A stretch of DNA of 41,342 bases. Origin: Fidelibacterota bacterium. Lineage in GTDB: Bacteria > Fidelibacterota > Marinisomatia > SCGC-AAA003-L08 > JACNLC01. This document shows positions 10,481 through 41,022 of the stretch, one piece after another. Position 1 is the first letter of the stretch, and every line of letters starts with the position of its first letter. The stretch lies in NCBI GenBank assembly GCA_024277615.1, contig JAJRUW010000064.1:1-41342 (forward strand). The letters are read 5' to 3'. The position numbers and the translations under genes were made by a program. A model generated the notes under the pieces. That model worked only from the letters and a program-made list of their open reading frames with translations. It had not been told where the DNA came from and searched no databases.

Positions 10481-11113
10481 ATGAAACAAATCTATGCCAT
10501 TATTTTAGCGATGAGCTTACTTTTCGCACTCGCATCAGCCGATGACGGGGCAAAAGCCGCCCCCGGTAAATCTCAAAAGGTGTCACCGCCTCAACTGGAG
10601 AATATCGTCAAAGGCGCCATGAAATCCCCGGTGAAAGCTCCCGCAAAAGATGCAGCGGTACCCGACGGAGAAAGCATTGAACTGGGAATTGAATCCATAA
10701 CCGAAAATAAAGACGGTAGCCTGACGATCGCCGTCTATATCCTCAATCCCGTAGAAATAGCTGGTTTTCAGATGGAGTTCATACCGTCGGGGTTGCTGGA
10801 GTTTGAGTCAATACAGGGTGGAATCGCCGGTGATCTTGGGTTTATGATGAAAGCCGGTAAGACCGGCCGGATACTCGGCTTTTCAATGCAAGGGACAAAA
10901 ATACCCATAGCAGAATCTGCGAAACCTGAGAAGAACATTTTATTTACCTTGACAGCGAAATTGACGGATGACTCAGTCGTTAAAAATTCTGCCTTGCTGG
11001 ACAAACAGGACAAATCCAGGGAAGTGACCCTGGATATGATTCCCATAATGGCCGGTGAGAAGGGAGTAAAGCTGCCGGTTTATACAATGCCTTATAAATG
11101 GACTTTGAAGTAA
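10481..11113 (+). CDS. Small secreted protein with one cohesin-like domain
   Basis: This 210-residue protein has a signal peptide (MKQIYAIILAMSLLFALASA, residues 1-20), a proline- and lysine-rich linker to about residue 60, and one beta-rich domain (about 62-205). The wording IAVYILNPVEIAGFQMEF followed by GRILGFSMQGTKIPI matches the cohesin-like domains of the giant protein encoded next (VGGFQFTL, GLVLGFSLTGATIPV). It has no T9SS sorting domain and no lipobox, so it may stay in the periplasm or be a soluble partner. It lies 198 bp upstream of the giant gene and may be co-regulated with it. Cohesin fold is inferred from motifs; true dockerin binding is unproven. Confidence 0.68.
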   Translation: MKQIYAIILAMSLLFALASADDGAKAAPGKSQKVSPPQLENIVKGAMKSPVKAPAKDAAVPDGESIELGIESITENKDGSLTIAVYILNPVEIAGFQMEFIPSGLLEFESIQGGIAGDLGFMMKAGKTGRILGFSMQGTKIPIAESAKPEKNILFTLTAKLTDDSVVKNSALLDKQDKSREVTLDMIPIMAGEKGVKLPVYTMPYKWTLK

Positions 11114-11311
11114 AATTTGTATGTAACAATTTATTTCAGAAGCTCATTGCTTTGCATATTCTATCACTTTATTAATAGATTCAGGGGCTGAAAAAGCGAG
11201 CTATACGTTCCGCAGGCTTTTATTTATAAAAACCCTCTAACGAAAAGGTCAAATTAAGATATATTTTAACATTAATTTAACGAAACCTTCAACTCAAAAA
11301 GGAGAAAATCA

Positions 11312-14300
11312 ATGAACCGTGTTCTAAAGAGTATGGTCATCGGTATTATGCTTGTTTCCATGAGTCTTCTGGCTCAGGATGTAACCATTAGCATCTCAAA
11401 TTCCGGTGATGATTTTATAGATGTTTACATGTCCAACACAGCTGCTGTGGGGGGCTTTCAATTTACCTTAACTGACACACCTGAAGCATTTACAGTGTCC
11501 GGCGCCTCAGGCGGAAGTGCAGGCGCAGCCGGCTTCATGATGTCAACAAATGCTGACGGACTCGTACTGGGATTCAGCTTAACCGGTGCTACAATCCCTG
11601 TTGGTGACGGGTTACTCTGTACAGTAGCTCTTTCTGCAATGGGTGATTTTACCGATGTTGGCATGGATAATCCCATTTTTTCCGATGCCACAGGGAGTTC
11701 CCTCTCAGTTGAATTGGTTGGCTTCCCTTATTCCTGGGGAACACCTCCGATGGATCCCCCCGAAGTAGCAATTCTTTCTCCTGCCGAAGGTGATTTAATC
11801 TACAATCAGGATATAGATGTTTCTCTGTCCAGCGCACACCTGGTCGAGGGCGATCAATTCCATGTTTACCTGGACGGATCTCTTGCAGGGATGTATAGTA
11901 CTACGGACTTTACTCTGACCGGAATTGCCTACGGTGCACATGAGCTTATGGTCACAGTGGCAGATGTTGATCATAATGAATACACCAATCCGGAAGCTAC
12001 CGATTCGGTGAACTTCGAAAATGCCGAACAAACCCTGGAAGGTTACACGCTCTCGATGGGAGACGGTAATGTGCTGGCAGGTGAATCCGTGGATGTAGAC
12101 ATGTCTCTTGCGAATGAAGATATTGTCGGCGGTTTTCAGCTTCAACTGATTGATTTCCCCAACTATGCAGAAGTCACGGCTGTGAATACTACCGACCGGA
12201 CCGATGGTTTTATGGTGAGCATGAATGAACAACCTGATGGTTCGGTACTGATTGTCGGTTTTGATATGTCCCTCGTGGGTGTTGCTGCCGGTACCGGCCC
12301 GATCCTCACCGTTACCTATCATTCGACCGGAATTTACGATTCTGAAATTGACCTGTCCTTTGATACCGACAATTCCATCCTCTCTGACTTGATCGGGAAC
12401 CCCCTGGACTTTACGACAGAAAACGGGATGCTGACAGTGGATGGTGAGACACCTCCGGATGTTTTCCCGCCGGCAGACCTAACCGCAGTCGGTGGCTGGC
12501 AGATGGTGAATCTTTCCTGGACACATCCCGAACCCTGGACTGTGGTTGCCTACTATATTTACCGTGATGGCGTTCAGGTGGGTGAGTCTCAGTTGCCCAA
12601 CTACGCCGATACCGGGCTAGATACTAATGTCGAATATTGCTACACTGTCGTTGCCGCCAGCGAGTTCAACGTTTCAGAACCCTCCAACGAAGCCTGTGCG
12701 ACCACGATGGAAGCCTTTTTTGATCCACCCCAAAATCTTGTTGCCGATGAAGACGGCCTGCAGATAAGCCTGAACTGGGCTCCTCCGGCCAGCGTAAATG
12801 CCTGCGGCAATGAAATGATCACCGGCCTGCCCTTCAGCGGGACGGGATCCAACGTTGGTGAAAGTGATGACTGGCCCGTGCAGGGCAGCCAGGGTGCAGA
12901 TTATGCATACATGATCAATATTTCGGAAGATACAGTAATTGATATCACGCTCTGTACAGCCAGTACGGATTATGACACAAAACTGGAAGTCTTTACCGCC
13001 GATGCAGATTGTAATGCAACCAGCACCGGTTATTACGATGATGACGCAACCTGTCAGTACAGCGGACTGTATTCATCCCTCTACGGAGTTGCCTTGACTG
13101 CCGGTCAGTATTATATTGTTGTTGACGGATTTGCAGGTCAAACCGGAAATTTCGGTATCGAAGTGACCGAATCCGGTCGTACAGCTGAAGAGCCTCCCTT
13201 TGTTGAAGACTCCATGGCACTGGAAACCGCAAAGTCAGGTATCGGTTATTCTCTGGAAAACTGGACCGTAGCCGATTTTGCCAATCCGAGAAACATGCGT
13301 GAATTTTTAGGTTATGAAGTTTACCGCGACAATCAGATGCTGGAATTCACAACCGACAATTTTTACGTGGATACTGATCCGGATCTCTGGTATCTCATTA
13401 CTTACTGCTACAATATAACAGCAGTTTACGATGAGGGTACTTCAGGATTTTCCAATACGGCCTGCGCAACACCCCAGCTGGGTGCCCCGACGAATCTGAC
13501 GGCAACCGGTGAGGGTGACGGCGTTGCTCTGGCGTGGGAAGCTCACCCGGATAATGCTCAGACGAGTTTTTATATTTATCGTGACGGAGAATTCCTCACC
13601 GAAACGACCGAAACAACTTATAATGATAATACCACAACCCACGATGTGGAATACTGCTACACCGTGACAGCTTATTATGAAGGCATCGGTGAATCACCGG
13701 CGACAAATGAAGCCTGTTCCATGTGGAGTCTATGTCCGCCTTCATATCTAGATGCCGCACCCGGTGATGGCTATATTGATGTCACCTGGGACGAAACATC
13801 CTGTGGCGAAGAAGTCTATTTGCAGTATTCCGGCGATGTGCTGGCTAATGCATTTTATTTTTACGCTACCTATGAAGATGGTTATGCGCACGGTACACGC
13901 TTTGATGTCGGGACTGATTTCGATGTAATATCAGCCTCAGTCTATATTTTATCAGAGGGTGATCAATACTGGCCCTGGCCTAATGATACTCATGGTCCGG
14001 TACGTGTAATGATCTTTGCAGATGACGGTACGGGTCTGCCAGGTGAACTGCTTTTTGATGAAGAAACCACGGCAGTGGATGGTTGGGCAACTGTAAATCC
14101 AAATATTACGGGACTTACAGGGTCTTTCTTTGTAGTTACCTCACACACTGATGATTGGTCGGTTGGCGGTGATCCTGAAGGCTTTGGAATCGATGATGCC
14201 GTTGATTATCCCGACAATATGGTGACTATGCAGGGTGGCACCTGGTCAACCGGTGATGTTCTTTTTTATGGCGGTGACTATATGACCTCTGCGCTGATCA

Positions 14301-17300
14301 ACGCCTATGGTCAGGTACAGCCTTTGAGTTACGGCAACTTACCCAGCAATCCGTTCTCTGACTTTGATGCCGTCGCCGGTACACAGGGACTGCCTTCAAA
14401 TGGATTTGGACAACAGATTGCACCTCCCTACTATCACAACGAGGCGAACCGCGAACTGCTTTCTTATGATCTGTTCAAGGACGGCGTCTTCCTGACGACT
14501 CTCGATCCTGACGTTTTCGCCTATCACGATGAAGACGTGGTGAATATGCAGGAATACTGCTATCACATGACTGCCAACTACACAGAGGGTACTTCCGAAC
14601 CCACAGATGATGTCTGTGCGATTCCGATTCCCGGTAATCCGCCGCTGAATTTGACGGCCGAAGATATGGCTGGGACCATCCACCTGGATTGGGATGAACC
14701 TCTGCCATTCGATGGTCCGGTGCTGAATTATAATGTTTATCGCGACGGCGAATTTTATGATGCTTCAGCTGCATCTGAATATGATGATACGGAGCCGGTT
14801 GCCGGCGTAACTTATTGCTACACGGTTACTGCCGTGTATGCATCTGGTGAGTCTTTTGCTTCAAATGAGGCTTGTTCCGTATATGTACTCGATCCGCCGG
14901 TTGGAGTCATTGCCGAAGGTCTGAACGACCAGCAGGCTATTCTGGTGACATGGAATGCTCCCGGTACCGAAGGTAGCGGTGAGACTATTGAAGACCCGCT
15001 TTTCGTAACCGGCCTGCCATTTGAAGACTCACGGAACACTAACGACTACATGGATGATTATGACGAAGCCTGTCCATATACAGGCAGTACTTCTCCTGAT
15101 GTAGTCTATATGTGGGCTGCCTCTGAGGGCGACTATCATATTGATATTTGTGACTCTGATTACGATACCAAGATCTATGTCTATGATGAAAACCAGAGTG
15201 TCATCGGCTGTGTGGATGACTCCTGTAATGCACCTGACGGAAGTCCTTTCAGGTCTGACCTCAATGTAAGCATTACCTCTGCCGGGACCTATTATATTAT
15301 CGTCGATGGTTACGGTGGGGCTGCCGGCACATACAATCTGCTTGTTGAGGAAGGTTTCCTGATTGCAGACCGTGAACCCCAACCCGCCAAAGATGTGAAA
15401 GCCGATCTGGTACTGGGGAGTGAAAGAGTTCAGCGTCCGCGGATTACCCGTGAACTGACCGGTTATAATGTTTACCGTGACGGCGTGCTCTATGCCGAAC
15501 TGGATAACGAGACATTTGAGTATCTCGATGAATATCCTGAAGCAGATCACGATACACAATACTGTTACACTGTCCGTGCTGTTTATGACGACGGTCTCTC
15601 CATCGACTCAAATGAAGCCTGTGCCCAATGGGTGCTGCCCGCTCCTTCCGGACTTACAGCCGTGGCCGTGGAAAGTACCATTGAACTGAACTGGACGGCA
15701 GCAGGTGGCGATGTGATCGAATATTCCATCTATCGTGACGGAACCTTTTTCGATTCTACTACCGAAACCAACTTTGTGGATACAACACCTGAACATGATG
15801 TGCTGTATTGCTATGAAGTGAGGGCCGTCCATGATCTTGGTGAGTCAGCTCCAACAAACGAAGCCTGCACAATGTGGATGATTTTGCCGCCCATGGCTTT
15901 GGTGGCCGAAGCCGGTCCGCCGAATGTTGACCCGAATGCTGTGCATCTGTCATGGATTGAACCGGGTCAGGATCTCTGTGCCGACGAAACCATTCCCTCG
16001 CTGCCATTCAGCGGCACAGGCACCAATGTGGGCATGGGCGATGATTGGCCGGTTCAGGGAAGTCAGGGTGCAGACTATGCCTATGGCATATATCTGGCCG
16101 TACCCACGACCATTGACATTACATTGTGTGATCCTGCCACAGACTACGATACCAAGTTGGAGGTTTTTACAGCCGATTTTGACTGTAATGCCACTACCAC
16201 AGGCTATTATGATGACGACTTCACCTGTGAGTTCAGTGTTCTTCAGTCAACACTGCAGGGCGTGGCATTAGATGCAGGACAATATTACATTGTCGTTGAT
16301 GGTTTCGGCGGCGGAGAAGGAAATTTCGGTATTACAGTGACCGAAGCCAACGGGGTGGCTCAGGAGCCGATGCCCGTCGAGGATCTGGTGGCTCTTGAAT
16401 CTGCAAAACTTGGCTATGATATTTCCATCGAGGACTGGCAGATTGCTGACGGTTCACAGAACAACAATGAACGGCCTTTGATTGGTTATAACATTTATCG
16501 CGACGGTTCACTGATCGACAGTGTTGACCCCGGCGTGCTTACCTATGATGATACCGGATTGGATAACTGTGCCGATTACTGTTATACTGTCAGAGCCAAC
16601 TTTGATGAAGGTGAATCACCGGATTCCAACGAATCCTGTGCTACGCCATTACCGGGAAGTCCTCCCACCGATTTACACGCCCAGGGCGAAAACGACTATA
16701 TTGCCCTCAGCTGGACCGAACCTGAATACACAGCCGGCGAAGTAATCAACTACATCATCTATCGTGATGGCGTTGAATTGGCAACTACTACTGATACTTC
16801 CTATCAGGACAGTGCAACCGAACATGATGTGGAATACTGCTACGAAGTTACCGCCGTCTATTCTGCAGATGAGTCCTGTTCAATTGACGATATCGCCTGT
16901 GATATGTGGGAACTTTGCCCGCCGTCTCATGTTGAGGCCACGCCCGGTGACCGCGCAGTGGACGTCAGTTGGGAAGAGACAGCCTGTGGTGAAGAAGTGG
17001 GCTTACAGTATGATGATGGTGTTTTAGCCAATGCCTTCTATTTTTACGATACATACGAGAATGGCTATGCTCATGGTATGCGCTTTGATGTAGGTACGAA
17101 CTTTGACGTTTTATCGGCCTCATTGTATATACTTTCAGAGGGTGATCAGTACTGGCCATGGCCCAACAGCACACATGGACCGGTCCGCGTTATGATCTTC
17201 GATGACAACAATGGTTTGCCCGGTGATCTGTTATACGATGAAGAGGCTACAGCCGTGGATGGCTGGGCCACAGTCGAGCCCAACCTTACCGGTCTGTCCG

Positions 17301-20300
17301 GTGCCTTCCATGTAGTTGCTTCTCACACTGAAGACTGGTCCGTGGGTGGCGATCCGGAAGGTTTCGGTATTGACGGCTCCGTTGATTATCCGGATAATAT
17401 GGTTACCATGCAAAACGGCACCTGGTCAACAGGTGACGTGCTCTTCTATGGTGGTGATTATATGATGGCTGCCCTGGTGAATGCCCGCGGCGGTATCCAG
17501 GCTATGTCATACGGTGATCTGCCAAGTTATCCGGCAACCGACTTCTCAATGGTCGCCTCGATACCGACGGATTTATTGACAGTGGCAAACAACAATGAAT
17601 CTCATCCTGATTACATCAATGATGTTACCAGGGAATTACTTGGGTACAATCTCTACCGTGATGATGTGATGATTGCCGAGATGCTGGCTCCTGATGTTTA
17701 CACATATCATGATGCTGACCTTGAAAACTGGGTTGAATACTGCTACACGATGGAAGCCATCTATGGTGAAGGTCCCTCACAAATGACGGATCCGGCTTGT
17801 GCTACTACTTTCCCGGGCGACCCACCCACCGATCTATCCGCTTCAGCTATGTTGGGACAGATCCACCTGGATTGGGTTGAGCCGGCAGGAGATGTAATTG
17901 AGTATATCGTTTACCGGGATGGTGAATTCTATGATTCATCCACCAGCAACTCCTATGATGATAGCGGTACTGATCCGGGAGTGACCTACTGTTACACCGT
18001 GTCCGCCATGTTTGACGGCGGTGAATCGGAACAATCCAACGAATCCTGTGCCATGTGGGATGTGGATGCACCCACCAGCGTCTCTGCAGTGGGACTTGAC
18101 GGGCAGCAGGCAATTCAGGTAGCCTGGATGCCTCCGGGTTCGGAAGCCTTCCTCACAATCGAAATTCTGACTGATACTTTCGGTGGCGAAACCTCTTGGG
18201 ATCTCGTCTCTGAAAGCGGTGAGATGATCGAACAGATGACAGGTGGGCTTTCCAGTAATACATTCTATACCTGGGATGTGGTCTTACAGCCCGGCACTTA
18301 CACCTTTACAATCTATGATGCATACGGTGATGGAATCTGCTGCGCCTACGGTGAAGGCTATTATAACCTGATCCTGAATGAAACTCTGATTGCCACGGGT
18401 GGTGAATTTGGTACGCAAGAAAGTGTCACTTTCAGTACCAGCGATGCTCTATTGAGTATTTCACAATCCTGGTATGAGATCGATAATCCTTATGAAAAAG
18501 GGACCGAGCTTACACCTGAAATGATTGCCGAAATTCCGGTAGGAGACCCGCTTGTGATCTATCAGGCTGAAGTCAGCCGTGATCTGTTAAACTACCTGGT
18601 ATATCGTGACGGTGAACTACTGGCGACAGTCGGACCGGACGTTCTCGAATACCTGGATGAATATCCTTCGGCAGAGAACGACACTGAATACTGCTACTAT
18701 GTAGTCGCGGATTACGATGAGGGAACATCAGATCCTTCCAATACCGCTTGTGCACAATGGCATCTGTCGCCGCCGACCAACCTCGTTGCAGAGGCTTCAG
18801 GCAGCGCCATTCAGTTAACCTGGGACAGCGCAGGCAGTGCCGATCTGCTGGAATATGCCATCTACAAAGACGGTGAATTCTTTACTTCGACTACTGAAAC
18901 CAGCTATTTGGATGCAGACGTAATTCACGATGTAGAATACTGCTATTATATTACCGGTATCTATGAAATCGGCGAATCGGCTCCTACGGATACCGAATGC
19001 ACCATGTGGCAGCTCTGTCCTCCGGGATACCTGGCAACCGATCCTGGTGACGGCTACATCGACCTGACCTGGGATGAAGTTTCCTGTGGTGAAGAAGTTT
19101 ACCTGCAGTATGACGACGGTGTATTGGCCAATGCCTTCTATTTTTACGATACATACGAGAACGGCTATGCTCATGGAATGCGTTTTGATGTGGGGACTGA
19201 CTTTGATGTTCTCGAAGCCTCAGTTTACATCCTGTCAGAAGGCGATCAATACTGGCCGTGGCCCAATGAAACACATGGTCCCGTGACGGTAATGATCTTC
19301 GATGATGACAACGGTCTGCCCGGGAATCTGCTGTACAGTGAAGAAGCTACTGCAGTGGATGGCTGGGCGACGGTTACACCGGATATCACCGGTTTGTCCG
19401 GGGCTTTCCATGTGGTTACATCTCATGCCGAAGACTGGTCAGTAAGTGGTGACCCCGAAGGATTTGGAATTGACGGTGCCGTTGATCATCCCGATAATAT
19501 GGTTACCATGCAGGGCGGTGTTTGGTCAACTGGTGATGTTTTATTCTATGGTGGTGACTATATGATGGCCGCCCTCATTAATGCTTACGGACAGGTGCAG
19601 CCTCTGAGTTTCGGCGACCTGCCCAGCAATCCGTTTACGGATATGAGTGTTGTTGCATCAATTCCTGAAGGTATCGACGGCGGTGCTCCTTCACAGGAAA
19701 CACATCCTCCGTTCTATGTAGACAACATGTTGAACAGAGCATTGCTATCCTATGAACTGTATCGTGACGATGCGCTCATCGCTACGCTGACACCGGATGT
19801 CTTCAGCTATCATGATGACGGCCTGGCCAATGGTATTGAGCATTGTTATACAATGACGGCAACCTATGATGAAGGCGTATCCCCGGCCACTGAACCCGTT
19901 TGTGACAGTCCCGGTGTACAGCCCACTAACCTCGTGGCAATACCGGGTGCTGACAATATCAGCCTGACCTGGGAAGGTGCACCCGATGCCATCGAATTCG
20001 TTATCTATCGCGATGGCAGCGAAATTGACCGCACAACGGAACATGCCTATGACGATAACGATTCCGCACCAGGCACAGAATACTGTTACACCGTAACGGC
20101 AAACTATTCTGCAGGCGAATCGATGCCCACAAACGAAGCTTGTACACAATGGGATCTGAACGGTGTGATGGCCTGGATTGAAAACGAAGGTTACCAGTCA
20201 TTACAGTTGTCCTGGACTGAACCGGGTGTCGCCGGTGGTGGCGATACCATTGAAGATCCTTTCTTCGTCACCGGGGTACCTTTCGATGATTCCGGTTCAA

Positions 20301-25964: not shown

Positions 25965-25974
25965 TTGAATGTAT

Positions 25975-25980: not shown

Positions 25981-25989
25981 TTTTTATCA

Positions 25990-29484: not shown

Positions 29485-29503
29485 TAAGGAATCGCAGCAG
29501 CTT

Positions 29504-32500
29504 ATGAAAATCATCAAAATTTTCGGCCTACTGGCCCTGATCAACCTGTTTCTCATCGCCGCGGAACCACTGGGGTCCGGCGAAGGCGGAACTGAAACGG
29601 CGCCTGCCCCGGATGGTCTCGAAAAGGTCGGAGATCACGCCTTCCCCACTAACCCGATGAATGACCGGGCGCACGGTTATCTGCTGAAGGGAAAAATTAA
29701 AAATGTAGTCTCAAATTATGGAAACTTTGTGGACTGGGAAGCCACCCCGAACGGATATTGGGGTAATTACAATTATCTGCCGAATGTAGGATTCCTGGCG
29801 GGTGTCCCCGGGCAAAAATATTCATCCGAATTTACCTGGACCAGTGACCCTCCCTTTGCAGGTGAGACCACCGATATACAGGTCTGGGGTTCTCATGATG
29901 CTTATCAGGCCTGGACTGAGGATGGCAAGACCAATTTTGTCGGCGTCCTGTTTGAAGCCGAAAATGATGATGGTATCGTCGGTACCGCAGTGGAAAATTA
30001 TACGGACCTGGTTGCAGAGCATCAATATGTTGTGGATGAGTTCGATGAAAAAATTTATATTGCCTTAGCGTATTCAGACTTAAATTCACTTGACCCCAAT
30101 CTTTCTATTGCCCGCATCGGTTTAATCTATCCCTGGGCTCTGAGACCGAAGCTTGACCGCCGTACCGATGCTTATGATGCTTTTGATTACGGGGAGGACC
30201 TTGAAGAATGGACGGAAGATGACAATTACGTCTATTATGGCGCCACTACTACCGAATCCTGGTTCACGCGCTGGAGACCCAGCATAAACACAGAATGGAT
30301 GCCGTCAACGAAAGCCCGTGAAAACACGCATAATACCGATGTAGATGAGGGAGATATTTTTGGCGATACGCCCTGGGTCAGCCCTTCCGATACTTATCCT
30401 TTGTTAGCCCATTCTGCCTATTCTCAAACCTGGCCTGTCAGAGTAAATCCGGAAACGGGTGAAGATGAATCCTTCTGGCCCGGTTGGTGGGCGGAAGATT
30501 TCAATAAGGAACTGCCCGGCTGCAGCGGTTTACGGCAGGACCCCCTTTGCTGGGAGACCGTTCCCGGCAGATTCGTATCTGATAATGATGTTTATATGGA
30601 ATTTGACGACCGTTGGGCTGAAAACGGGAATATGGTGGATACTAATGATAATTATGAACAGACCGGTTATCCGCTGGGGCTGAAGGTCATGGCGGAAGCC
30701 CACTCCTACGGAGTCTCCTATGCCGAAGATATCATGTTTGTGACGGTTAAAGTACGCAATGAGAGTGGCGACTGGTGCGCAACCGACGAGCATGGTGACC
30801 CTGTACTCGATGAAGACGGTATGCAAAAATGTGGCGAAGCCATGGTGCTGCCGGACGGGACCACCCTGAATGGAGGTGCCGGGTTTGACTATAAGAATGT
30901 TTATCTCGGTTTTTACTTTGATGCAGATGCCGTTTGGTCAACTCAATCGGGTAATACCGGTGTACATACCAACGATGATGACTTTATGGAGTACTACATC
31001 GATTCGCTTTACGTCAATAATGAGAAGCTGCTGATCAGTATGGCCATGATCTATGATTATGACGGAGTCAGCAACTCGGCTACGGATCTTGGCGTAGTGG
31101 GTGTACAACTTCTGGATACGCCTCTGGCCACAGAGCCGGTGGATTTAAACCAGGACGGATTCATCGATATCTTTCCCGGAGAACCCCTTAAAATGACGGA
31201 CTGGCACTGGTTTGACTGGTATAACCGTCCAGGTGTCTCCAACAGAGAGACAAATTCAGGCCCCTTCGCCGGGTCTCCCGGTGTGCCCCAGGCCAGAAAC
31301 AAGGAGGAAATCCAGTACAAGGTCATGGCAGGTGATACAACCAATTTATCTGTGGATGAAAAAGCCTGGTTTTTCCATACACCGCATCCCGATACGGATC
31401 TCGATAACGAGCTGAATCCCCATTTTGATTCTATTTCCGGATTGCGTGAGACGGATGAATTCATCGAAGACCCCAAGGGTCTGGACTGTGTTCTGATTAT
31501 GAGTTGCGGTCCTTTTGATTTATCGGTCGGAGAGGAAGTGCCCTTCTCCTTCAGCATTATCTTTGGGGATGCAATCTATTTAGATAATGAAGGTACCATC
31601 GACTACTCAGACATTGTGAAAAATGCACAGTTTGGTCAAATCATGTACAATTCCCACTATCAGGGTTTCACACCTCCGGCAACCCCCACGGTTTTCGCAA
31701 CAGTGGATCATAACCGGGTGGAGATCACCTGGGATCAGGTAGCGGAAATTTCCACGGATGTTGTAACCGGCTATGGCGATTTTGAGGGCTATAAGCTCTA
31801 TAAAAGCCTGGACGGCGGAAAAACCTGGGGTCAGGAGATCGTGGACCTCGACGGGAATCATTTGGGTTGGGTACCGCTGGCTCAATTTGACCTGTCCTAT
31901 CAGCAGGATATTGAACATTGCATTTATTCGGGGGGCGCCTGCGACAATGAGGAGGACCAGCGCCAAATCGATATCAAAGGACTCGATCCTCTGGCATCCT
32001 GGAAGAACCTGGGGGATGATACCGGCATCCAGCACTCCTACATCGACAGCAATGTGGTGGATGGTATTGAATATACCTATTCTGTTACAGCATACGATAT
32101 GGGCGTTGAAGCGGATTATACACTGGAACTGATCGATAATGATGACGGTACCTTCTCACTGGATACACTTTGGTCAACTTCAAACCCTGATCACTGGTCC
32201 AGTCCGGATGGATATCAGAGCATCGAAACTTCAATGGGGACTACAACTCATGACCCCAATTTCATTACGGTTACGCCGGGTTATCATGCCAGTAATATTA
32301 CTTTTCCGGATCCTCAAAACACAGACGAATTTCTGGTTCCGGTCGGTACTACCATCGGTAACGGCGACAGGTTCTATACAATTGTCAACGAGGAGGACCT
32401 GACGGATATTTTGATCAAAATGGAAATTCAGGCGGACCCTGCACCGAATGCCTATGAAGGGTATAAAACTGAAAATCCTGCCCTCATGATCTATGAGATT

Positions 32501-33790
32501 GATAATCTGAATGATCAGAATCCGGTAAATGTTGAAACATTTGATATGAGTACTCTTACGGAGGAAGAGATCGTAGCTAAAATGGATCTGCCCGGGGCTG
32601 ACAGCAGTAATGCGCAAATCTTCATTCCTGATTATTTAATGGATCCCTATCCGCTGGCGTACCAGGATGACCTGGACTATGAAAATAACTGGTCTGAATT
32701 TTTCGATGGTATCAGAATGAGATTTGACAATGGCGTCTTTGACTTTAATAATCTGGATGATAAAGTAGCCGTCGTGAAGGAACTCTCGTCCACCCCGGAT
32801 TCAAGTTTGGTGAACCGGCTGGATATCAGTTTATTGTATAAAGGTCCCACGCAGTTTAACAGCCGGCCTCCCTATGAATACAAAATCGAATTCAGTTCCG
32901 GTGTTCTGGATACGGCCTATGCCAAAGTGTCTTCATCAGGGTGCGCAACGGATTTTAAAACCTTACTGCCTTTCAAAATAACGAATCTTACAACCGGGAA
33001 ACATGTGAAGCTGGTGCATATTGATAAGGGGATCTGCTCCTTGTCCGATGATGGTTGTGATTACCCCAATATTCTTCAGATTCCGGGGTATAAAGATTGC
33101 ACCTGGGAGCGCAATGAAGAGATGCGGTTGGCAGCAGATACGGTTTCTACGGCTTCCAATCCTGAACCCCACGCCGATCATATTTTTAATCTGAAGATCA
33201 ATTTCCAGATTCCTGAAGTATCGGCTTGGGCTGATAATATCCCATACGCCAAGGATACGCCCGTTGAACAGGAAGGTATGTTGTACATTGCATCCGATAA
33301 TATACCCGCCGGCATTGATCCTGTGGAATGGATTGATGATAATGGAGATGATGTAAATGATAATCCCTGGCAGATCTGGTATCCCTGGGAGGACGGGGAC
33401 TCAATTATTATTAAACCTGCCCGCTGGTATGTTGACGGAGATACCTGGGTCGCAGACCTGTCTTCACTCGGGAAAAGCCATTCGGTAACACAGAGCGAAT
33501 TAGAAATGGTGAGTGTAGTTCCAAATCCATATCTGGCCTATTCAGATTTTAATGAGACAGAGTTCGAAAGAAGGCTGCGGTTTACACATCTGCCCCAGCG
33601 CTGTAAAATCACTATCTTTACCATAACCGGTGAGAAGGTTAATTCATTTACCCACGATGATGAGTACGATAGTAACGAATGGTGGAATATGCGAACCGTG
33701 AACAATCAGGAGATTGCACCGGGCCTCTATTTGTACACGGTTGAGGCTGATGGAAAAAAACATGTGGGCAAGTTTGCTGTTGTCCGATAG
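29504..33790 (+). CDS. Large secreted protein with FN3-like region and T9SS-type C-terminus
   Basis: This 1428-residue protein has a signal peptide (about 1-20). Most of it is not recognised; the N-terminal half is rich in aromatic and acidic residues. An FN3-like unit (about 725-875) reads VEITWDQV, YKLYKSLDGGKTW and YTYSVTAYD. The last 90 or so residues (VVPNPYLAYS, ITIFTITGEKV, APGLYLYTVEADGKKHVGKFAVVR) resemble a T9SS sorting domain, so surface display is inferred. The ATG at 29504 is preferred to one 11 codons upstream that overlaps the receptor gene; AAGGA precedes it by 13 bases. It lies between the receptor and the PorV-like gene with gaps under 20 bp, so these products probably act together. 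Confidence 0.75.
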   Translation: MKIIKIFGLLALINLFLIAAEPLGSGEGGTETAPAPDGLEKVGDHAFPTNPMNDRAHGYLLKGKIKNVVSNYGNFVDWEATPNGYWGNYNYLPNVGFLAGVPGQKYSSEFTWTSDPPFAGETTDIQVWGSHDAYQAWTEDGKTNFVGVLFEAENDDGIVGTAVENYTDLVAEHQYVVDEFDEKIYIALAYSDLNSLDPNLSIARIGLIYPWALRPKLDRRTDAYDAFDYGEDLEEWTEDDNYVYYGATTTESWFTRWRPSINTEWMPSTKARENTHNTDVDEGDIFGDTPWVSPSDTYPLLAHSAYSQTWPVRVNPETGEDESFWPGWWAEDFNKELPGCSGLRQDPLCWETVPGRFVSDNDVYMEFDDRWAENGNMVDTNDNYEQTGYPLGLKVMAEAHSYGVSYAEDIMFVTVKVRNESGDWCATDEHGDPVLDEDGMQKCGEAMVLPDGTTLNGGAGFDYKNVYLGFYFDADAVWSTQSGNTGVHTNDDDFMEYYIDSLYVNNEKLLISMAMIYDYDGVSNSATDLGVVGVQLLDTPLATEPVDLNQDGFIDIFPGEPLKMTDWHWFDWYNRPGVSNRETNSGPFAGSPGVPQARNKEEIQYKVMAGDTTNLSVDEKAWFFHTPHPDTDLDNELNPHFDSISGLRETDEFIEDPKGLDCVLIMSCGPFDLSVGEEVPFSFSIIFGDAIYLDNEGTIDYSDIVKNAQFGQIMYNSHYQGFTPPATPTVFATVDHNRVEITWDQVAEISTDVVTGYGDFEGYKLYKSLDGGKTWGQEIVDLDGNHLGWVPLAQFDLSYQQDIEHCIYSGGACDNEEDQRQIDIKGLDPLASWKNLGDDTGIQHSYIDSNVVDGIEYTYSVTAYDMGVEADYTLELIDNDDGTFSLDTLWSTSNPDHWSSPDGYQSIETSMGTTTHDPNFITVTPGYHASNITFPDPQNTDEFLVPVGTTIGNGDRFYTIVNEEDLTDILIKMEIQADPAPNAYEGYKTENPALMIYEIDNLNDQNPVNVETFDMSTLTEEEIVAKMDLPGADSSNAQIFIPDYLMDPYPLAYQDDLDYENNWSEFFDGIRMRFDNGVFDFNNLDDKVAVVKELSSTPDSSLVNRLDISLLYKGPTQFNSRPPYEYKIEFSSGVLDTAYAKVSSSGCATDFKTLLPFKITNLTTGKHVKLVHIDKGICSLSDDGCDYPNILQIPGYKDCTWERNEEMRLAADTVSTASNPEPHADHIFNLKINFQIPEVSAWADNIPYAKDTPVEQEGMLYIASDNIPAGIDPVEWIDDNGDDVNDNPWQIWYPWEDGDSIIIKPARWYVDGDTWVADLSSLGKSHSVTQSELEMVSVVPNPYLAYSDFNETEFERRLRFTHLPQRCKITIFTITGEKVNSFTHDDEYDSNEWWNMRTVNNQEIAPGLYLYTVEADGKKHVGKFAVVR

Positions 33791-33805
33791 GAGAATAAAG
33801 AATTT

Positions 33806-34828
33806 ATGAAAATAAAGCATCTCATATTAATTACTGTTACCGCCGCCGGTTTTATTTGCGCTCAGAGTACAATCCCGGAAGAGGTTACAAAAGTTGCAAC
33901 AGCTGCGGGAAATTGGCTGAAACTGGAAAATGATGCCCGGGCAATCGGAATGGGAGGCGCCTTTGTTGCGGCCGGTACAGGCGTAGGTGCCATCCCCTAT
34001 AATCCGGCCGGTGTAGGCTTTGTAAAAGGCTCGGAATTATATTATTCAAAGACAAACTACCTTGCAGGAGTATCCTATAATGTGCTGGCCTATGGCACAC
34101 AACTTTCCAACATCGATTACCTGGGAGTACATCTGTTTTATCTGGATTCGGGTAAAATGCCGGTTACCACAGCCTGGTACCCTGACGGTACAGGTGAGGA
34201 GTTTAAGGTTATGGCATTATCGCTCCGGGTCACTTATGCCAGGGTAATGACAGACCGGTTGAAGATTGGCATCTCTATTAAATACATCCGTGAAAGGATC
34301 TATACAACCAGTATGCAATCCGTTGCGGTTGACATCGGTTCAAATTTTAATACGGGGATTTATGGTGTGATACTTGGTATGTCAGTGAGTAATTTCGGAC
34401 CCGAAGTCCAGTTCCACGGCGAGGGCTTGCAGCAACCGGTTGACCCGACGGATAATCCTGATCAGACATTGCTGAAACCCACCGAGAAATTTCCTCTGCC
34501 GCTGGTGTTCCGGCTGGGTATTAAAAACGACATCATCGGCCCTGAAAGCGTGTTCAGGGTCAATAAAAATCACAGGCTGACATTTGCCCTTGACGGGTCC
34601 AGCCCGCTTGACTATACAGTCACCGAAAATATGGGTCTGGAATACGCCTGGCGGGAAACGGCTTTTCTGCGCATGGGGACCCATTTGTCACATGATACTG
34701 CTGGATTGAGTCTGGGGGCAGGGGCAAGGCTGAAATCCAGAGGTTTTAATGTGGAAGTTGACTACGCTTATGTAAATTACGGCGTCCTGAACGAGACACA
34801 TCAATTCAGTTTGATCCTCGGTTTTTAA
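33806..34828 (+). CDS. PorV/PorQ family outer-membrane protein
   Basis: This 340-residue outer-membrane beta-barrel protein has a signal peptide (about 1-19). Family features are LKLENDARAIGMGGAFVAAGTGVGAIPYNPAGVGF near the start, repeated amphipathic strands, and a last strand ending in phenylalanine (HQFSLILGF). PorV helps T9SS cargo leave the translocon for surface attachment, while other members are of unknown function; which applies here cannot be told. It is the last gene of the 23859-34828 cluster. AGGAG overlaps the preceding stop codon and sets the start. Confidence 0.82.
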   Translation: MKIKHLILITVTAAGFICAQSTIPEEVTKVATAAGNWLKLENDARAIGMGGAFVAAGTGVGAIPYNPAGVGFVKGSELYYSKTNYLAGVSYNVLAYGTQLSNIDYLGVHLFYLDSGKMPVTTAWYPDGTGEEFKVMALSLRVTYARVMTDRLKIGISIKYIRERIYTTSMQSVAVDIGSNFNTGIYGVILGMSVSNFGPEVQFHGEGLQQPVDPTDNPDQTLLKPTEKFPLPLVFRLGIKNDIIGPESVFRVNKNHRLTFALDGSSPLDYTVTENMGLEYAWRETAFLRMGTHLSHDTAGLSLGAGARLKSRGFNVEVDYAYVNYGVLNETHQFSLILGF

Positions 34829-34924: not shown

Positions 34925-37579
34925 ATGATTCGTAAAGTTATAATAATTTTGGTGCTGTTTATAGCATTTTCGTTTGCCCGGGAACTGAAAACGGCTGCAA
35001 ACAAACATGCGTCCCAAATTACTAGCGGCCAGAACAATATTACCGTTATACACAATCCTGCGGTACAGCAGTCCGACAGAACGGATGTCATCTTATATGA
35101 AGACGATTTTGAGGGCGATGTGAGCGGTTGGCAGACGGAAGGCCCCTGGGTCCTGACGGAAGACCAGTCCATGAGCCCCACTCACAGCTTTAACGCCGTG
35201 AATAACCCTGGTGGTGTCGATGAGGGCAGCTGGAATTTGTACTCTCCGGTTTACGCTTTGCCTGAACTCGGTGACGGGGAGGTCATGCGGTTTGGATTTT
35301 CTCTTTTCGTTGATACTCCCGACTTTGATGGCGACGGTGACAATTCTCTTGAAGACCTCTACAGGGTATCCCTTGCTGATGTTGATGCGCTGGCCTGGCA
35401 CGCCACTGATTTCAACGCATTTAACGGTATGTCGTACTGGTGTGGTGACGAATCTCTTCAGGGCTACAGCGACGGTTGGCTCCAGTTTTTGGATACACCT
35501 CCGATCACTGTTCCGGGAATTGGTTATGAACTTTCAGCTCAATTGAAATGGGGAATTGAAGAGCCCTGCGGCGGAGATTGTGGCATTGCCGGAGCCTTTA
35601 TCGATGGCTGGGATGCCGCCAATGTTCGTATTTCCACAGATGGTGGCGCAACCTGGGATTTTCTGAACGGGGACGATCCGTATGATTTTACCAGCGGCTA
35701 TGGTTGGTTTTTCAACGGTGAACCTGAATATACACCCGGTTGGGGCGGACAGCAGGACTGGCACAATGTAACTTTTGATCTTTCGGCCTATTCGGGTGAA
35801 GAAGTTATTATTCGTTTCGCTTTTGGTTCGGATCCTGCTTACTCCACAATTGATGATGCTTCTCTCGTAGGATTCTTCGTGGATGATATCACAATTGAAA
35901 ATATTATGGGTGATCAGATCTTTGCCGCCGACGCTGATAGTGGTGACGACCCCATGATCGCAGCCGGTCTGGCCTGGATTGAACAATTCTATGACTACGG
36001 TGACCCCGCAGGCCCCCGTCCCGGTGCAAACGGCTGGGAAGAATACCTTCCGGGATATCCTTACAATGGTAATGTATTTCTGGACATCAGCGATATGGCA
36101 GGGAAAAATATCCAATTTAAATTTATGATGGTCTATGATGGGAACGATGACGGCGGCAGTGGTGACGGTCTGTTTATAGATGATTTCAAAATTTATAAAG
36201 AACTGGGTGCTCCCCCTGCACCGACCGGTCTTGCAGGCGAAGCTTTGGATTCGCAATGTAATCTCTGGTGGGATGATATGAATTATGCCGGTACGGATGA
36301 TTATATTTATGACAGCGACCAGGTTACACAATTAATTACATTAACCGATGCCGGTGAAGCCTGGGCGGGTGAAAGATTCGATATTGTGGGTGCTTCCACA
36401 ATAAACACGGTTTCCGTGTTCAACGCCAACGGTTTTCCGGTTGATGTAACGGTAGCGGCCTTTGAACAGGTCGGAGCCTTTTATAATTTGACACCTGCTT
36501 TCCAGACCAACGTTACACTTGACGCCGACTGGAATGATCTGACTCTGGGGTGGGATATGGGATCCGGCTATATCATTGCCGTTACTTTCACCAATGAAGT
36601 TGCTGCCGGACTGGACGAATCCAACCCCATGGGGCATGCCATGGTCATGCTGGGAGGCAACTGGGATACTTGGCAGTCCGTTGCTGAAGGTTCCGGCGGT
36701 TCACTGAATGACGGTGAGTGGGGTATCCGGGCAAATATAACAACCCTGGGGGCTGACGTGACATATAATGTGTACCGTGACGGGGAAGCTGTTGCTTCAG
36801 GTTTCAGCACAGCCTCGTATTCCGATTTTACTGTTGAAAATAATATCACATACGAATATACGGTCAGTGCAACTTTCCCCTCCGGGGACGAGAGTGATCC
36901 CTCTGCTCCCATCGAGTTGACACCGCAGTCCAGTACAATTTATGAGATTGCGCTTGACGATGGAACATCCGAACTCGGGATATCCATGGGTTCGGGGAAT
37001 TATATGGCGGTAAAGTTCACCGCAGCGGGTGTCGATGATGATCTCGTGAGGTTAAAATGGTACCAGCAGGGCGACGGCGGTGCCTTCTATTTTTACCTCT
37101 GGAATGATGATGCCGGCCTGCCCGGAGCAGAACTCTGGCACCACATCATCGTGGGTGGAGTTGAAGGATGGAATTCTTATGACGTAAGTGCAGAAGGGAT
37201 TCAATTAACCGGTGATTTCTGGCTGGGTGTGAAAGAGTTCTCCTCCACACAGGATTTTGGATTCGACACCGGTTCTAACGGTATGGGCTACTGGAGGCAG
37301 GGTGGAAATGGTGACTGGCAGCTTTTATCGGACCTTGGATTCGACGGTAATCTTATGGTCAGACCGCTGTTGGATGGAGGCGAAGTTCAGGGTTGTACGC
37401 TGGGCGATGTGAATGCTGACGGTGTTCTCGACGTGCTCGATATCGTCAGAGTTGTGAATTTCATTATGGGAAGTGAAACGCCCACGGATGATGAAGCCTG
37501 CGCTGCCGATATTAATGAGGACGGTGTTATTGACGTTCTGGATATTGTCAATATCGTGAATATTATCATGGGTTCCTGA
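34925..37579 (+). CDS. Secreted multidomain protein ending in a type I dockerin
   Basis: This 884-residue protein has a signal peptide (about 1-18). Two jelly-roll-like domains of the MAM/immune-inhibitor-A type follow (about 58-335 and 345-425; LYEDDFEGDVSGW, FFVDDITIE, LFIDDFKIY). Next come an FN3-like unit (about 610-665, YNVYRDGEAVA) and a domain similar to module A of the giant protein (about 675-815). The end (about 822-884) is a dockerin: GDVNADGVLDVLDIVRVVNF and ADINEDGVIDVLDIVNIVNI, with calcium ligands at loop positions 1, 3, 5, 9 and 12. There is no T9SS sorting domain and no catalytic motif was seen. AAAGGAG precedes the ATG. It may dock onto cohesin-like domains encoded nearby. 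Confidence 0.8.
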   Translation: MIRKVIIILVLFIAFSFARELKTAANKHASQITSGQNNITVIHNPAVQQSDRTDVILYEDDFEGDVSGWQTEGPWVLTEDQSMSPTHSFNAVNNPGGVDEGSWNLYSPVYALPELGDGEVMRFGFSLFVDTPDFDGDGDNSLEDLYRVSLADVDALAWHATDFNAFNGMSYWCGDESLQGYSDGWLQFLDTPPITVPGIGYELSAQLKWGIEEPCGGDCGIAGAFIDGWDAANVRISTDGGATWDFLNGDDPYDFTSGYGWFFNGEPEYTPGWGGQQDWHNVTFDLSAYSGEEVIIRFAFGSDPAYSTIDDASLVGFFVDDITIENIMGDQIFAADADSGDDPMIAAGLAWIEQFYDYGDPAGPRPGANGWEEYLPGYPYNGNVFLDISDMAGKNIQFKFMMVYDGNDDGGSGDGLFIDDFKIYKELGAPPAPTGLAGEALDSQCNLWWDDMNYAGTDDYIYDSDQVTQLITLTDAGEAWAGERFDIVGASTINTVSVFNANGFPVDVTVAAFEQVGAFYNLTPAFQTNVTLDADWNDLTLGWDMGSGYIIAVTFTNEVAAGLDESNPMGHAMVMLGGNWDTWQSVAEGSGGSLNDGEWGIRANITTLGADVTYNVYRDGEAVASGFSTASYSDFTVENNITYEYTVSATFPSGDESDPSAPIELTPQSSTIYEIALDDGTSELGISMGSGNYMAVKFTAAGVDDDLVRLKWYQQGDGGAFYFYLWNDDAGLPGAELWHHIIVGGVEGWNSYDVSAEGIQLTGDFWLGVKEFSSTQDFGFDTGSNGMGYWRQGGNGDWQLLSDLGFDGNLMVRPLLDGGEVQGCTLGDVNADGVLDVLDIVRVVNFIMGSETPTDDEACAADINEDGVIDVLDIVNIVNIIMGS

Positions 37580-37677: not shown

Positions 37678-40600
37678 ATGTTTAAACAAACCAGCCTGCT
37701 GTTATTATTTCTGACCTCAATCGTTTTCTCAACTGAGATTATCCCCGGTGAATTTCTATTCTGCCTGAAACCTGCGGTTCAGCCCCTGGAGATCAGTAGA
37801 GCTGATGATGGTGTGCTGGTGGATAATGCCGAACTAAACTCTTTTTTTACTGAAAACGGCATAATCGACATTGAGCCTTGGATACCTTTTGCAACCGATG
37901 CAGACAGGGATGGCGATATATACCTGAACCGGATCTACCGGGTCTATCTTGCAGATGGTTTCCGAAATGCCCTGTCGGACATCAAAGAGAATATTACCCG
38001 GTTGTCCTCTGTTTATTCTGCCGAGTATGACTATTATCGCAAGGCGACTCATCAGCCCAATGATCCGGGCTATATTCAGCAATGCAGTCTGTCCGCAGTG
38101 AAAGCCACCCAGGCCTGGGACCTTTGGGATATTGCCAACGGGGTCTTCCCGGGTGACCGCGAGGTTCTGTTAGCATCTGTCGATACAGCTGTAGATTACA
38201 CCCATCCGGACCTGCAAAGCAGTATTTGGATCAATCAGGATGAAGTACCCGGTGCAATTTTCGATGAGGTGGATACGGACAATGACGGTTATGTTGACGC
38301 CGACGAAGTCGTAGCATTCCTGGTTGACAGTAATATAGACGCGAATCTTGATGGCGAAATCAACCTGCAGGATGCCGTAGCATCCTCATCCCCGTTCATT
38401 AACGGAATCGATGATGATAACTGGGACAATAATTCCAATTCTTTCATCGATGATCTCATTGGTTGGGACCTTTCCGGCTGGTCGGGAACGGATGACAATA
38501 ATCCTATGCCGAAACCCGGCGTGCCCAATAACAGTACCTGGGCACATGGCACACATGTTGCCGGCATCCTTTCGGCCTCGACAGATAATAATCTCGGAAT
38601 GGCCTCCACGATGTACAACGGCAGCATTTTAAGTGTCAAATGCTCGCGTGAGAGTCAGACGGGTGAACCCTATGTCAACGATGGGTTTTCAGGGATCACA
38701 TACGCCGCAAAACTCGGACATGACAAGGGCACGCATGTGATTATTAACTGTAGTTGGGGCGGTGGCGGTTACAACAGTTATGAACAGACAGTCATCAACA
38801 ATGCCTTCAACAACTACGATGCCGTAATCGTAGCAGCCGCAGGTAACGGCAACGATCTGGGAGGAGAAGAACATGCATCGCATTATCCTTCGAGCTACTC
38901 GAATGTCATCTCCGTGGCTGCCATCGGTTGCAGCGGAAGCTGGGGGCACTGGGCTACCTACCATGAAACTGTTGATCTTTCAGCCCCTGGCGAAGGTATC
39001 TACAGTACGATCATTGACGGCGGTTATGAATCCTGGAACGGTTCTTCCATGGCAAGCCCCAATGCAGCCAGTTGTATCGGTCTGCTCTACTCATTTTATC
39101 CCGACTGGAGCAACCAGCAATTGGTGGACCGGATCATCGAATCGGCGGACCCTTTCATTTATGATGTGAATCCAGACGAATATCTTCAGGGGCAGCTGGG
39201 AACTGGAATGGTCGATGCTTTTACAGCAATCGGGGCTCTGGTTTATCCGGGACTTTACTATTACAACCATTCGGTAACCATCAACAATGGAGATGGCGAC
39301 GACAACCTTAACCCGGGAGAATCGGCAGAATTAAGGGTCACGCTGGGTAACCTGGATGGATGGCAGAATGCCGATAATGTGACCGCAATCCTGACAAGCA
39401 TGAATCCGGGCGTAACAATTACCGACTCTACAGCAGACTACGGTACCATCAACGAGGGTGGTATCGGGATTAATATTTCGGATACTTTTGCTTTTGAACT
39501 CTCCAATGACATCGATCTTGGGGAAGTCGAATTTGTCCTGGAAACCACGGCAGAAAGTGTCCCGGGATATGACTATCAGGCTGCAATCCCCTTTACCATC
39601 GTGGTCACACTTAATCAGCAGGGTTGGCCTGTTGACTCGCTTTACGAGGAGCTTAACAATGTCGAGACAGCCCCCCTGGTCATGGATGTGATGGGAGATG
39701 CGGCCAAAGAGATCATATTCGGGGATTATAACGGCTATTTATACTGTGTGAATTCAGCTGGGGATTTGATCGATGACGGACTATTCCCGTTTGATACAGG
39801 CAACCAGATCTGGGGTTCACCTGCCGCCGCCGACATTGATAATGACGGAAATATCGAAATCGTCACAACTTCTAAAAGTAAGCATTTATTTATTCTGGAT
39901 CCCGGTGACGGTGTTATGCAGGTTGACTATAATGCAGGACAGTATCTGATGGGGTCACCTGCAATCGGAAACCTCGACGACGATGATGAACTTGAGATTG
40001 TCGTCGGCGGTTATAAATCTACGGGAAAGCTCTTTGTGATAAACCCGGATGGATCTGATGTTACCGGTTTTCCCTATGATTTAGACGAAAAGGTACTCAG
40101 GGGTGTAGCGCTTGCGGATTTCAACAATAACGGCAAGGCAGATATTGTCTGTGCAACCGAATCGCATCATGTGTGGCTGATCTATGATGACGGCACGATA
40201 GCTCCGGGATTTCCATTTACTGCCGAGAATAAGTTTAAATCTGCACCTTCCATTATGGATCTGGATGGGCAGAAAGTTATCTTTGCCGGCAGCAATGATG
40301 ATAAATTCTACGCGATCAATAGTGACGGCAGCCTGCGGTTTGAGGTTGTTACAGGGGACGATATTATCACATCTCCGGGATTTATGACTTCCGGTTCAGA
40401 TAATTATATCTTCTGGGGATCCAATGACGGCTTTGTTTACGGCATTGATGCGGCCGGCAATCAGCTGCCGGGCTGGCCTGTGGATACCGGTATTTCCGTG
40501 AAATCCTCCCCAGTGTTTTCTGATCTCGATGGCGACGGCCTGCCGGAGATTATTTTTGGTACGGGATCGGGTCAGCTGATGGGATTGACTCTGGCCGGTT

Positions 40601-41022
40601 TGCCCGTAACTTTCTTTCCCATTTATGCTCTGCCTGCTCTGAACGGCACGGCAACCATTGCCGATACCGATGGTGATGGCGATCTGGAAATTCTGATTGG
40701 TTCCGTTTCGAGTCTTGTAGATATCGATTACAAAGCATCCGGATCGAATGCTGATTTTTGGTTCACGCACCGGGGCAATAGCAGGCGCACGGGGTATTAT
40801 GGTGACCTTGAGAGCGGAGGCTGTGGGGACTGTATGAGCGGCGATGTTAATTGTGACGGCATTATCGATATACTCGATGTAGTCCGCACGGTGTTCATCG
40901 TTTTGCATGGCACCGATGAAGTAACCGAATGCGAAGCCCAGCTTGCCGACATGACAAATGACGGGATCGTTGATGTGCTTGATATTGTCACCATGGTGAA
41001 TGCCATCATTGGCAGGGAGTAA
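37678..41022 (+). CDS. Subtilisin-like (S8) secreted protease with FG-GAP-like repeats and C-terminal dockerin
   Basis: This 1114-residue protein has a signal peptide (about 1-18) and a propeptide-like region to about 130. The catalytic triad is D169 (SVDTAVDYTHPDL), H290 (WAHGTHVAGI) and S457 (NGSSMASP), with oxyanion N390 (AAAGNG). Between D and H lies an unusual acidic insertion (about 198-275, DTDNDGYVDADE and DANLDGEINLQD) with EF-hand-like loops. After the protease comes a beta domain (about 520-640), then about six FG-GAP/propeller-like repeats (about 655-1035; AAADIDNDGNIEIV, VFSDLDGDGLPEIIFG). A dockerin closes the protein (about 1048-1114, GDVNCDGIIDILDVV and ADMTNDGIVDVLDIV). It is predicted to degrade or process extracellular proteins. 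Ribosome binding site is weak. Confidence 0.88.
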   Translation: MFKQTSLLLLFLTSIVFSTEIIPGEFLFCLKPAVQPLEISRADDGVLVDNAELNSFFTENGIIDIEPWIPFATDADRDGDIYLNRIYRVYLADGFRNALSDIKENITRLSSVYSAEYDYYRKATHQPNDPGYIQQCSLSAVKATQAWDLWDIANGVFPGDREVLLASVDTAVDYTHPDLQSSIWINQDEVPGAIFDEVDTDNDGYVDADEVVAFLVDSNIDANLDGEINLQDAVASSSPFINGIDDDNWDNNSNSFIDDLIGWDLSGWSGTDDNNPMPKPGVPNNSTWAHGTHVAGILSASTDNNLGMASTMYNGSILSVKCSRESQTGEPYVNDGFSGITYAAKLGHDKGTHVIINCSWGGGGYNSYEQTVINNAFNNYDAVIVAAAGNGNDLGGEEHASHYPSSYSNVISVAAIGCSGSWGHWATYHETVDLSAPGEGIYSTIIDGGYESWNGSSMASPNAASCIGLLYSFYPDWSNQQLVDRIIESADPFIYDVNPDEYLQGQLGTGMVDAFTAIGALVYPGLYYYNHSVTINNGDGDDNLNPGESAELRVTLGNLDGWQNADNVTAILTSMNPGVTITDSTADYGTINEGGIGINISDTFAFELSNDIDLGEVEFVLETTAESVPGYDYQAAIPFTIVVTLNQQGWPVDSLYEELNNVETAPLVMDVMGDAAKEIIFGDYNGYLYCVNSAGDLIDDGLFPFDTGNQIWGSPAAADIDNDGNIEIVTTSKSKHLFILDPGDGVMQVDYNAGQYLMGSPAIGNLDDDDELEIVVGGYKSTGKLFVINPDGSDVTGFPYDLDEKVLRGVALADFNNNGKADIVCATESHHVWLIYDDGTIAPGFPFTAENKFKSAPSIMDLDGQKVIFAGSNDDKFYAINSDGSLRFEVVTGDDIITSPGFMTSGSDNYIFWGSNDGFVYGIDAAGNQLPGWPVDTGISVKSSPVFSDLDGDGLPEIIFGTGSGQLMGLTLAGLPVTFFPIYALPALNGTATIADTDGDGDLEILIGSVSSLVDIDYKASGSNADFWFTHRGNSRRTGYYGDLESGGCGDCMSGDVNCDGIIDILDVVRTVFIVLHGTDEVTECEAQLADMTNDGIVDVLDIVTMVNAIIGRE

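Follow-up and report, generated by a model that had tools for sequence, protein, structure and literature searches.

The DNA stretch analysed in this work (the window; 41,342 nucleotides) is one whole contig of a metagenome-assembled genome (MAG) from Candidatus Neomarinimicrobiota, a phylum also called Marinimicrobia or SAR406 and now also Fidelibacterota. The host MAG comprises 2.41 Mb and is 77% complete; the MAGs compared here are incomplete. Positions 10481-41022 are occupied by a run of eight plus-strand genes, encoding in this order a small cohesin-like protein, a giant protein, the conserved protein p702, a TonB-dependent receptor (TBDR), the conserved protein p1439, a PorV/PorQ-family protein, a MAM protein and an S8 peptidase. 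The first two products contain cohesin-like domains and the last two end in dockerins. Cohesin-dockerin assembly is known mainly from cellulose-degrading anaerobes of gut and soil.

The first gene (10481-11113) encodes a small secreted protein with hydrophobic N-terminus and a single cohesin-like domain (10661-11110), lacking a sorting tail of the type IX secretion system (T9SS); its length is 210 aa from ATG or 216 aa from an upstream TTG. It is followed by the gene of a 3955-aa giant (11312-23179), characterised by Pfam and our own profiles as non-catalytic and scaffoldin-like. Behind a hydrophobic N-terminus, the giant carries two cohesin-like domains (11372-11740 and 12032-12445), many fn3 and RGI-lyase beta-sheet repeats, two further cohesin-like domains (21167-21589 and 21593-21982) and a T9SS sorting tail (22907-23176). 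Pfam families fn3, RGI_lyase, Cohesin and FlgD_ig are matched above cut-off. Por_Secre_tail stays slightly below (26.1 bits, cut-off 27), and our own profile of the T9SS C-terminal domain (CTD) recognises the tail with E 2e-30. No carbohydrate-binding module (CBM) was matched by Pfam scan of the giant.

A first-pass annotation, made from the letters of the window, had proposed these five cohesin-like domains, and the proposal is borne out by alignment, Pfam and fold modelling. All five can be aligned with each other at 19-39% identity and share a GFQF...GFS.G core. Among window proteins, Pfam Cohesin (PF00963) exceeds its cut-off solely in the giant (28.4 bits for the protein, cut-off 24.1), with residues 3293-3404 in the third domain as the best stretch. 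The giant's first domain reaches E 8.7e-29 with a profile of which it is itself a member; its second and fourth were assigned by domain alignment and our own cohesin profile. The 216-aa protein gave no Pfam match. Profile-profile comparison relates the window domains to a family of small T9SS-tailed cohesin proteins, referred to as anchors below, with 96.9% probability. At the sequence level, the anchor-family profile matches cohesins of the PDB (E 1.5e-5); the window set resembles classical cohesins weakly (best PDB E 0.04). The most divergent window domain, that of the 216-aa protein, was modelled by AlphaFold with pLDDT 84.9, and Foldseek comparison of this model with PDB returned mostly cohesins as top matches (Clostridium perfringens, Ruminococcus flavefaciens, Clostridium thermocellum and others). 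The alternative outcome, that the domains would not adopt cohesin folds, was thus not observed. The anchor-family model likewise matches solved cohesins. Fold models cover these two cohesins, and the giant's four domains rest on homology to them. Together with the Pfam match in the giant, the two models supply the predicted cohesin fold needed for a cohesin-dockerin complex in the broad sense.

Both dockerins proposed in the same annotation, one of them on a subtilisin-like protease, are real by Pfam or lineage-specific profile. The InhA-like MAM protein (34925-37579; InhA-like_MAM 33.7 bits) has its dockerin at 37400-37573 (residues 826-879; Dockerin_1 34.0 bits, E 6e-25 with our lineage profile). 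The S8 peptidase (37678-41022; Peptidase_S8 124 bits) consists of a catalytic domain (38158-39162), FG-GAP repeats and a C-terminal dockerin at 40834-41013 (residues 1055-1110). Its Dockerin_1 score of 22.2 bits is below the cut-off of 22.9; the lineage-specific profile, of which this sequence is part, gives E 2e-20. Each dockerin contains two EF-hand-like loops. Calcium ligands, said to be complete, are so in the MAM protein and in the first S8 repeat, but in the second S8 repeat (DMTNDGIVDVLD) ligand position 3 is occupied by Thr. Residues at loop positions 10-11 read VL/VL and IL/VL, as had been stated. Such near-identity between both repeats is common among dockerins of the host genome; dual-mode binding, with which it is compatible, is conjectural.

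We wondered if the closeness of cohesins and dockerins in the window exceeds chance. The host genome contains 72 dockerin matches in 2.41 Mb, so that 0.91 are expected per 30.5 kb and the probability of finding two or more is 0.23. By number, the closeness is not beyond chance, and two dockerins within 30 kb prove little in a genome with so many. The location is still meaningful, because the MAM and S8 genes stand beside a conserved cassette. This consists of p702 (23856-25964; probably a lipoprotein, with FMFSRC near the N-terminus), the TBDR with CarboxypepD_reg and Plug domains in Pfam (25969-29484), p1439 with a weak T9SS-type tail (29471-33790) and the PorV/PorQ-family outer-membrane protein (33806-34828). 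The last scores 178 bits with NCBIfam PorV_fam (cut-off 90) and stays under both the PorV and the PorQ equivalog cut-offs. Homologs of p702 (about 22-94% identity) directly precede the TBDR in most relatives examined; the TBDR itself is matched in 59 of 60 relatives, and its nearest matches keep the gene order. The p702-TBDR-p1439 arrangement, with PorV where the contig extends that far, recurs across the class. In several relatives PorV is followed by MAM and S8 homologs, as in L135 and L136 and, with one intervening gene, in L138.

In relatives, a small gene for a cohesin with T9SS tail also belongs to this neighbourhood. It lies within the dockerin-protein cassette in G001, G003, G009 and G025, directly beside the dockerin S8 gene in G006 and G008, and two genes past it on a contig of the same genus (L140). 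The counterpart of this gene in the host would lie past the end of the window. Another host contig (C2) was considered as continuation, as it opens inside a protein with dockerin, further domain and T9SS tail; it was rejected, its first 8 kb being without a small cohesin gene.

The dockerin complement of the host genome, whose count had been suggested as a check, was then characterised. At least 19 dockerin proteins are peptidases by Pfam scans: seven C25 (gingipain-like), six S8, two M14, two trypsin-like, one M6 and one C1. Others are a Porphyromonas-type arginine deiminase (PAD), nucleases, a phosphatase and an esterase. A hydrophobic N-terminal segment, taken as proxy for a signal peptide, is present in 52 of 64 dockerin proteins checked. 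The dockerin is situated at the extreme C-terminus in 54 of 70 cases, and in about 13 a stretch of some 190-220 residues comes after it, with a T9SS tail at its end. No cellulase families were found among the approximately 70 scanned dockerin proteins of the genome. The claim that glycoside hydrolases are missing holds locally, with none among the scanned window proteins (some upstream minus-strand genes lay outside the scan), but not genome-wide, where four dockerin proteins are glycoside-hydrolase-like (GH13+CBM53, GH53, GH114 and GH130/GH32-like). The suggestion that a surface complex serves mainly proteolysis, and not cellulose breakdown, is supported by the peptidase number, the absence of cellulase families from the scanned set and the presence of cohesins on T9SS-tailed proteins. 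One compact peptidase cluster (C21:15867-21505) comprises four consecutive dockerin genes on the same strand, including two trypsin-like ones and one subtilisin.

Of the five families sampled in the order, f1, f2, f3 and f5 mostly contain from 31 to at least 88 dockerin matches per genome (genome size 1.1-3.2 Mb), high counts being lower bounds; exceptions are G002 (7), G034 (8) and G033 (15). Family f4 has 0-2 per genome. Elsewhere in the phylum counts are mostly 0-21, again as at least, with looser bounds. Pfam counts are lower bounds also because a genome without Pfam dockerin match (G052, contig C42) encodes an M14 peptidase that ends in a dockerin according to the lineage-specific profile. 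T9SS tails number 5-48 against 8-83 dockerins in f3 and 14-66 against 0-2 in f4, and f1 and f5 are rich in both. An inverse relation of tails and dockerins was considered and dropped, since abundance of both in f1 and f5 leaves no simple trade-off.

Further, we examined distribution of cohesins in the host genome. The cohesin-domain profile, which included the five window domains, gave 26 matches. Besides the giant with its four cohesins, non-catalytic T9SS-tailed proteins with three or more are encoded on C50, C76, C89 and C95; the tail of the C89 protein exceeds its Pfam cut-off. Proteins combining cohesin and dockerin occur on C49, C17, C60 and C90. On C90 (2003-7370), a 655-aa cohesin-Big_2-dockerin protein with Pfam cohesins and C-terminal dockerin adjoins a gene for a beta-helix-dockerin-cohesin-T9SS-tail protein; a single in-frame TGA interrupts the latter, which may reflect a pseudogene, an assembly error or recoding. 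An anchor is encoded on C93 between murA-like and trkA-like genes (names assigned by reading); this protein of about 250 aa has a hydrophobic N-terminus, a single cohesin and a T9SS tail. Candidatus Neomarinimicrobiota supplies nearly all relatives of its cohesin; the closest record, at 95% identity, is a MAG labelled "FCB group bacterium". Full-length anchor homologs (frames of about 235-292 aa, 90 bits or more) were found in 26 of 28 genomes with at least 15 dockerins versus 3 of 32 with fewer. The anchor is absent from dockerin-rich G005 and G021, both incomplete, and present in dockerin-poor G002, G034 and G042.

A dockerin followed by a further domain and a T9SS tail some 190-220 residues downstream is an arrangement that recurs (L036, L037, L040, L041, L042, L043, L045, L051, L052 and L070). 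By eye, the intervening domain of the approximately 13 such proteins is cohesin-like; the cohesin profile recognised a single one of them, with a weak score (E 1e-3).

Homologs of the two dockerin proteins of the window differ in their C-termini. Of the full-length S8 homologs, 19 in number, nine terminate with a dockerin and another nine with a T9SS tail, while the remaining one has neither. The S8 tree requires at least four tail changes, and a single dockerin clade is rejected by the approximately unbiased (AU) test (p about 1e-40). Where adjacent MAM and S8 genes could both be scored, tails are concordant in 11 of 12 genomes: both dockerin in G000 (the host), G001, G003, G005 and G027, both T9SS tail in G002, G023, G042, G049, G052 and G054. 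In the discordant G009 the MAM protein has the dockerin and S8 the tail. Because homologs of both proteins end in either one or the other, the dockerin probably replaces the T9SS tail in them. Two further families were tried as cases of exchange. M14 was discarded, its homologs having a dockerin throughout; PAD was not counted, since its sole tail-bearing member (G002) pairs with the tail-less one of G057 on a long branch. These two arginine deiminases (contigs C76 and C133) come from genomes of different families, and the G002 sequence is taken as a divergent or transferred copy, the grouping being compatible with gene transfer.

Taken together, we consider it likely that a T9SS-anchored cohesin-dockerin system extends over the genome, with the window as one of its loci, and displays secreted peptidases on the cell surface. 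Sec would export the enzymes, whose C-terminus holds a dockerin where a T9SS sorting tail might otherwise stand. T9SS would bring the cohesin proteins to the surface and attach them there, as their sorting tails indicate; these proteins are small anchors (signal peptide, cohesin, T9SS tail) or multi-cohesin giants like that of the window. Dockerins would then fit into cohesins as plugs into sockets, so that many enzymes could share few T9SS-delivered sockets, and proteins with both modules may link layers. The result would be a proteolytic surface layer beside a TonB-dependent uptake receptor; position of the p702-TBDR-p1439-PorV genes next to dockerin peptidases suggests coupling of surface proteolysis with uptake of peptides.

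How tail-less enzymes might cross the outer membrane is a separate question. T9SS moves folded proteins and requires a folded C-terminal domain (reviewed in PMC9251779), and its substrates exit the translocon CTD-first, with PorV (PMC10994853). Transport of a docked partner along with the substrate is therefore conceivable. Dockerins might serve as adaptor-dependent secretion tags that bind T9SS-tailed cohesins in the periplasm and pass the T9SS pore together with them, an idea that we put forward tentatively and regard as rather unlikely. Literature search retrieved no report of such piggyback export through T9SS. If true, one T9SS substrate would export many tail-less enzymes, and C-terminal dockerins and T9SS tails would be evolutionarily interchangeable.

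Several observations weigh against a surface-displayed cohesin-dockerin system. The co-occurrence of anchors with dockerins tracks families, so that its counts are non-independent and reflect few evolutionary events; a Fisher p-value computed from them is therefore no fair probability. Cohesin-like domains are also found in dockerin-poor family f4; the cohesin fold therefore proves no dockerin partner. Cohesin-like genes lie beside S8 also in G042, G049 and G052, whose S8 and MAM proteins bear T9SS tails, although these genomes still keep at least one dockerin protein (M14). When four doubtful S8 rows are dropped one by one (G002, G011 and G038 as possible paralogs or transferred copies, then the syntenic, tail-bearing G023), the minimum number of changes is still 4 after the first removal and drops to 3, 2 and 1 with the next ones. 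M14 homologs end in a dockerin in 30 of 30 cases read and PAD homologs in 27 of 30, hence replacement of the tail is gene-specific. The f4 genomes, the low sequence likeness of the window set to classical cohesins and the predominance of fn3-like repeats in the giant, typical of adhesins, would all suit a phylum in which cohesin-like domains serve as beta-sandwich adhesin modules of general use and do not pair with dockerins, the latter having other binding partners or stabilising their proteins as calcium-dependent tails. We consider this unlikely, as anchors follow dockerin-rich genomes, both modules are joined in single proteins of the same genome, and dockerin peptidase genes of relatives lie near genes for T9SS-tailed cohesins.

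Still less probable, in our opinion, is a genuine complex that resides in the periplasm or on released vesicles. Dockerins at the very C-terminus leave most of these proteins without a T9SS tail of their own and thus without visible route across the outer membrane, as such a location would predict. However, their presumed partners bear T9SS tails, such tails are also found on homologs of the S8 and MAM proteins, and Porphyromonas uses T9SS to place C25 peptidases and arginine deiminase on its surface or to secrete them. A different matter is whether surface display, if correct, involves the window's own cohesins. It is quite possible, though not what we would expect, that the window dockerins have partners other than the 216-aa protein and the giant, that the giant fills a slot for variable T9SS proteins and that the partner is a small T9SS-tailed cohesin encoded off the contig. 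In relatives, the proteins encoded in the slot upstream of p702 bear T9SS tails and vary in size, and in most of them no cohesin was detected; the same-genus contig L140 offers such a partner gene after its dockerin S8. On the contrary, upstream-slot proteins of G031 and G030 also match cohesins, and those of the giant are clear.

The nearest described system is, judged by domain architecture, the putative cellulosome-like complex of Candidatus Stygibacter (Cloacimonadota), and the present candidate is of the same kind in another phylum. Stygibacter is reported to have a few dockerin enzymes, among them S8 and C25 peptidases, chitinase and amylase-like members, and a non-catalytic, multi-cohesin scaffoldin of 3,755 aa with CBM2/CBM3 and a T9SS-type C-terminal domain for surface attachment (PMC8542988). 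Both systems share S8 and C25 enzymes with signal peptide (here the hydrophobic N-terminus as its proxy) and C-terminal dockerin as well as a giant multi-cohesin protein with T9SS tail. The present one differs in scale (about 70 dockerin proteins), in its strong peptidase bias, in conserved single-cohesin anchors and in homologs bearing either dockerin or T9SS tail; its giant has fn3-like repeats and no CBM match. With clostridial and ruminococcal cellulosomes (type I/II/III) it has in common the cohesin fold, the duplicated calcium-loop dockerin, multi-cohesin non-catalytic proteins, cohesin-dockerin adaptors and single-cohesin surface anchors. Unlike there, no cellulase families were found, anchoring would be by T9SS tail instead of S-layer or sortase, and the host is diderm. 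It is not a cellulosome in the strict sense, as dockerin cellulases and a CBM match in the giant are missing. Non-cellulosomal cohesins of C. perfringens (NagJ GH84 and sialidase; PDB 2jh2, 2w1n, 2vo8) rank with the solved structures nearest to both models; these are parts of enzymes, whereas here cohesins mostly reside on separate T9SS-tailed or small secreted proteins and dockerins on the enzymes. Bacteroidota T9SS cargo (gingipains, PPAD) belongs to the same families (C25, arginine deiminase) and is destined for the cell surface, but here a dockerin takes the place of the T9SS sorting tail at the end of most such proteins.

Cohesin-dockerin assembly would be a main organising principle for secreted proteins, foremost peptidases, in these bacteria, a protease counterpart of the cellulosome. 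The hosts are marine bacteria, abundant and uncultured, and little is known of their part in protein turnover; their dockerin load represents heavy investment. Exchange of dockerin and T9SS tail among homologs provides a testable statement on how tail-less enzymes exit a diderm cell. In the literature searched, coverage of which was incomplete, no paper linked dockerins to the Marinimicrobia phylum.

A protein of Candidatus Hydrothermota (JAGGUL010000005.1) combines a cohesin-like domain, a dockerin, a second cohesin-like stretch recognised by eye and a T9SS-type tail, which suggests that similar systems may occur in another phylum. In the window itself, the minus strand upstream of the eight-gene run encodes a tyrosine recombinase of the phage integrase family close to the contig start (1717-2754) and two adjacent, similar lipoprotein-like genes with lipobox near the N-terminus (2922-3920 and 4098-5201), probably a tandem duplication.

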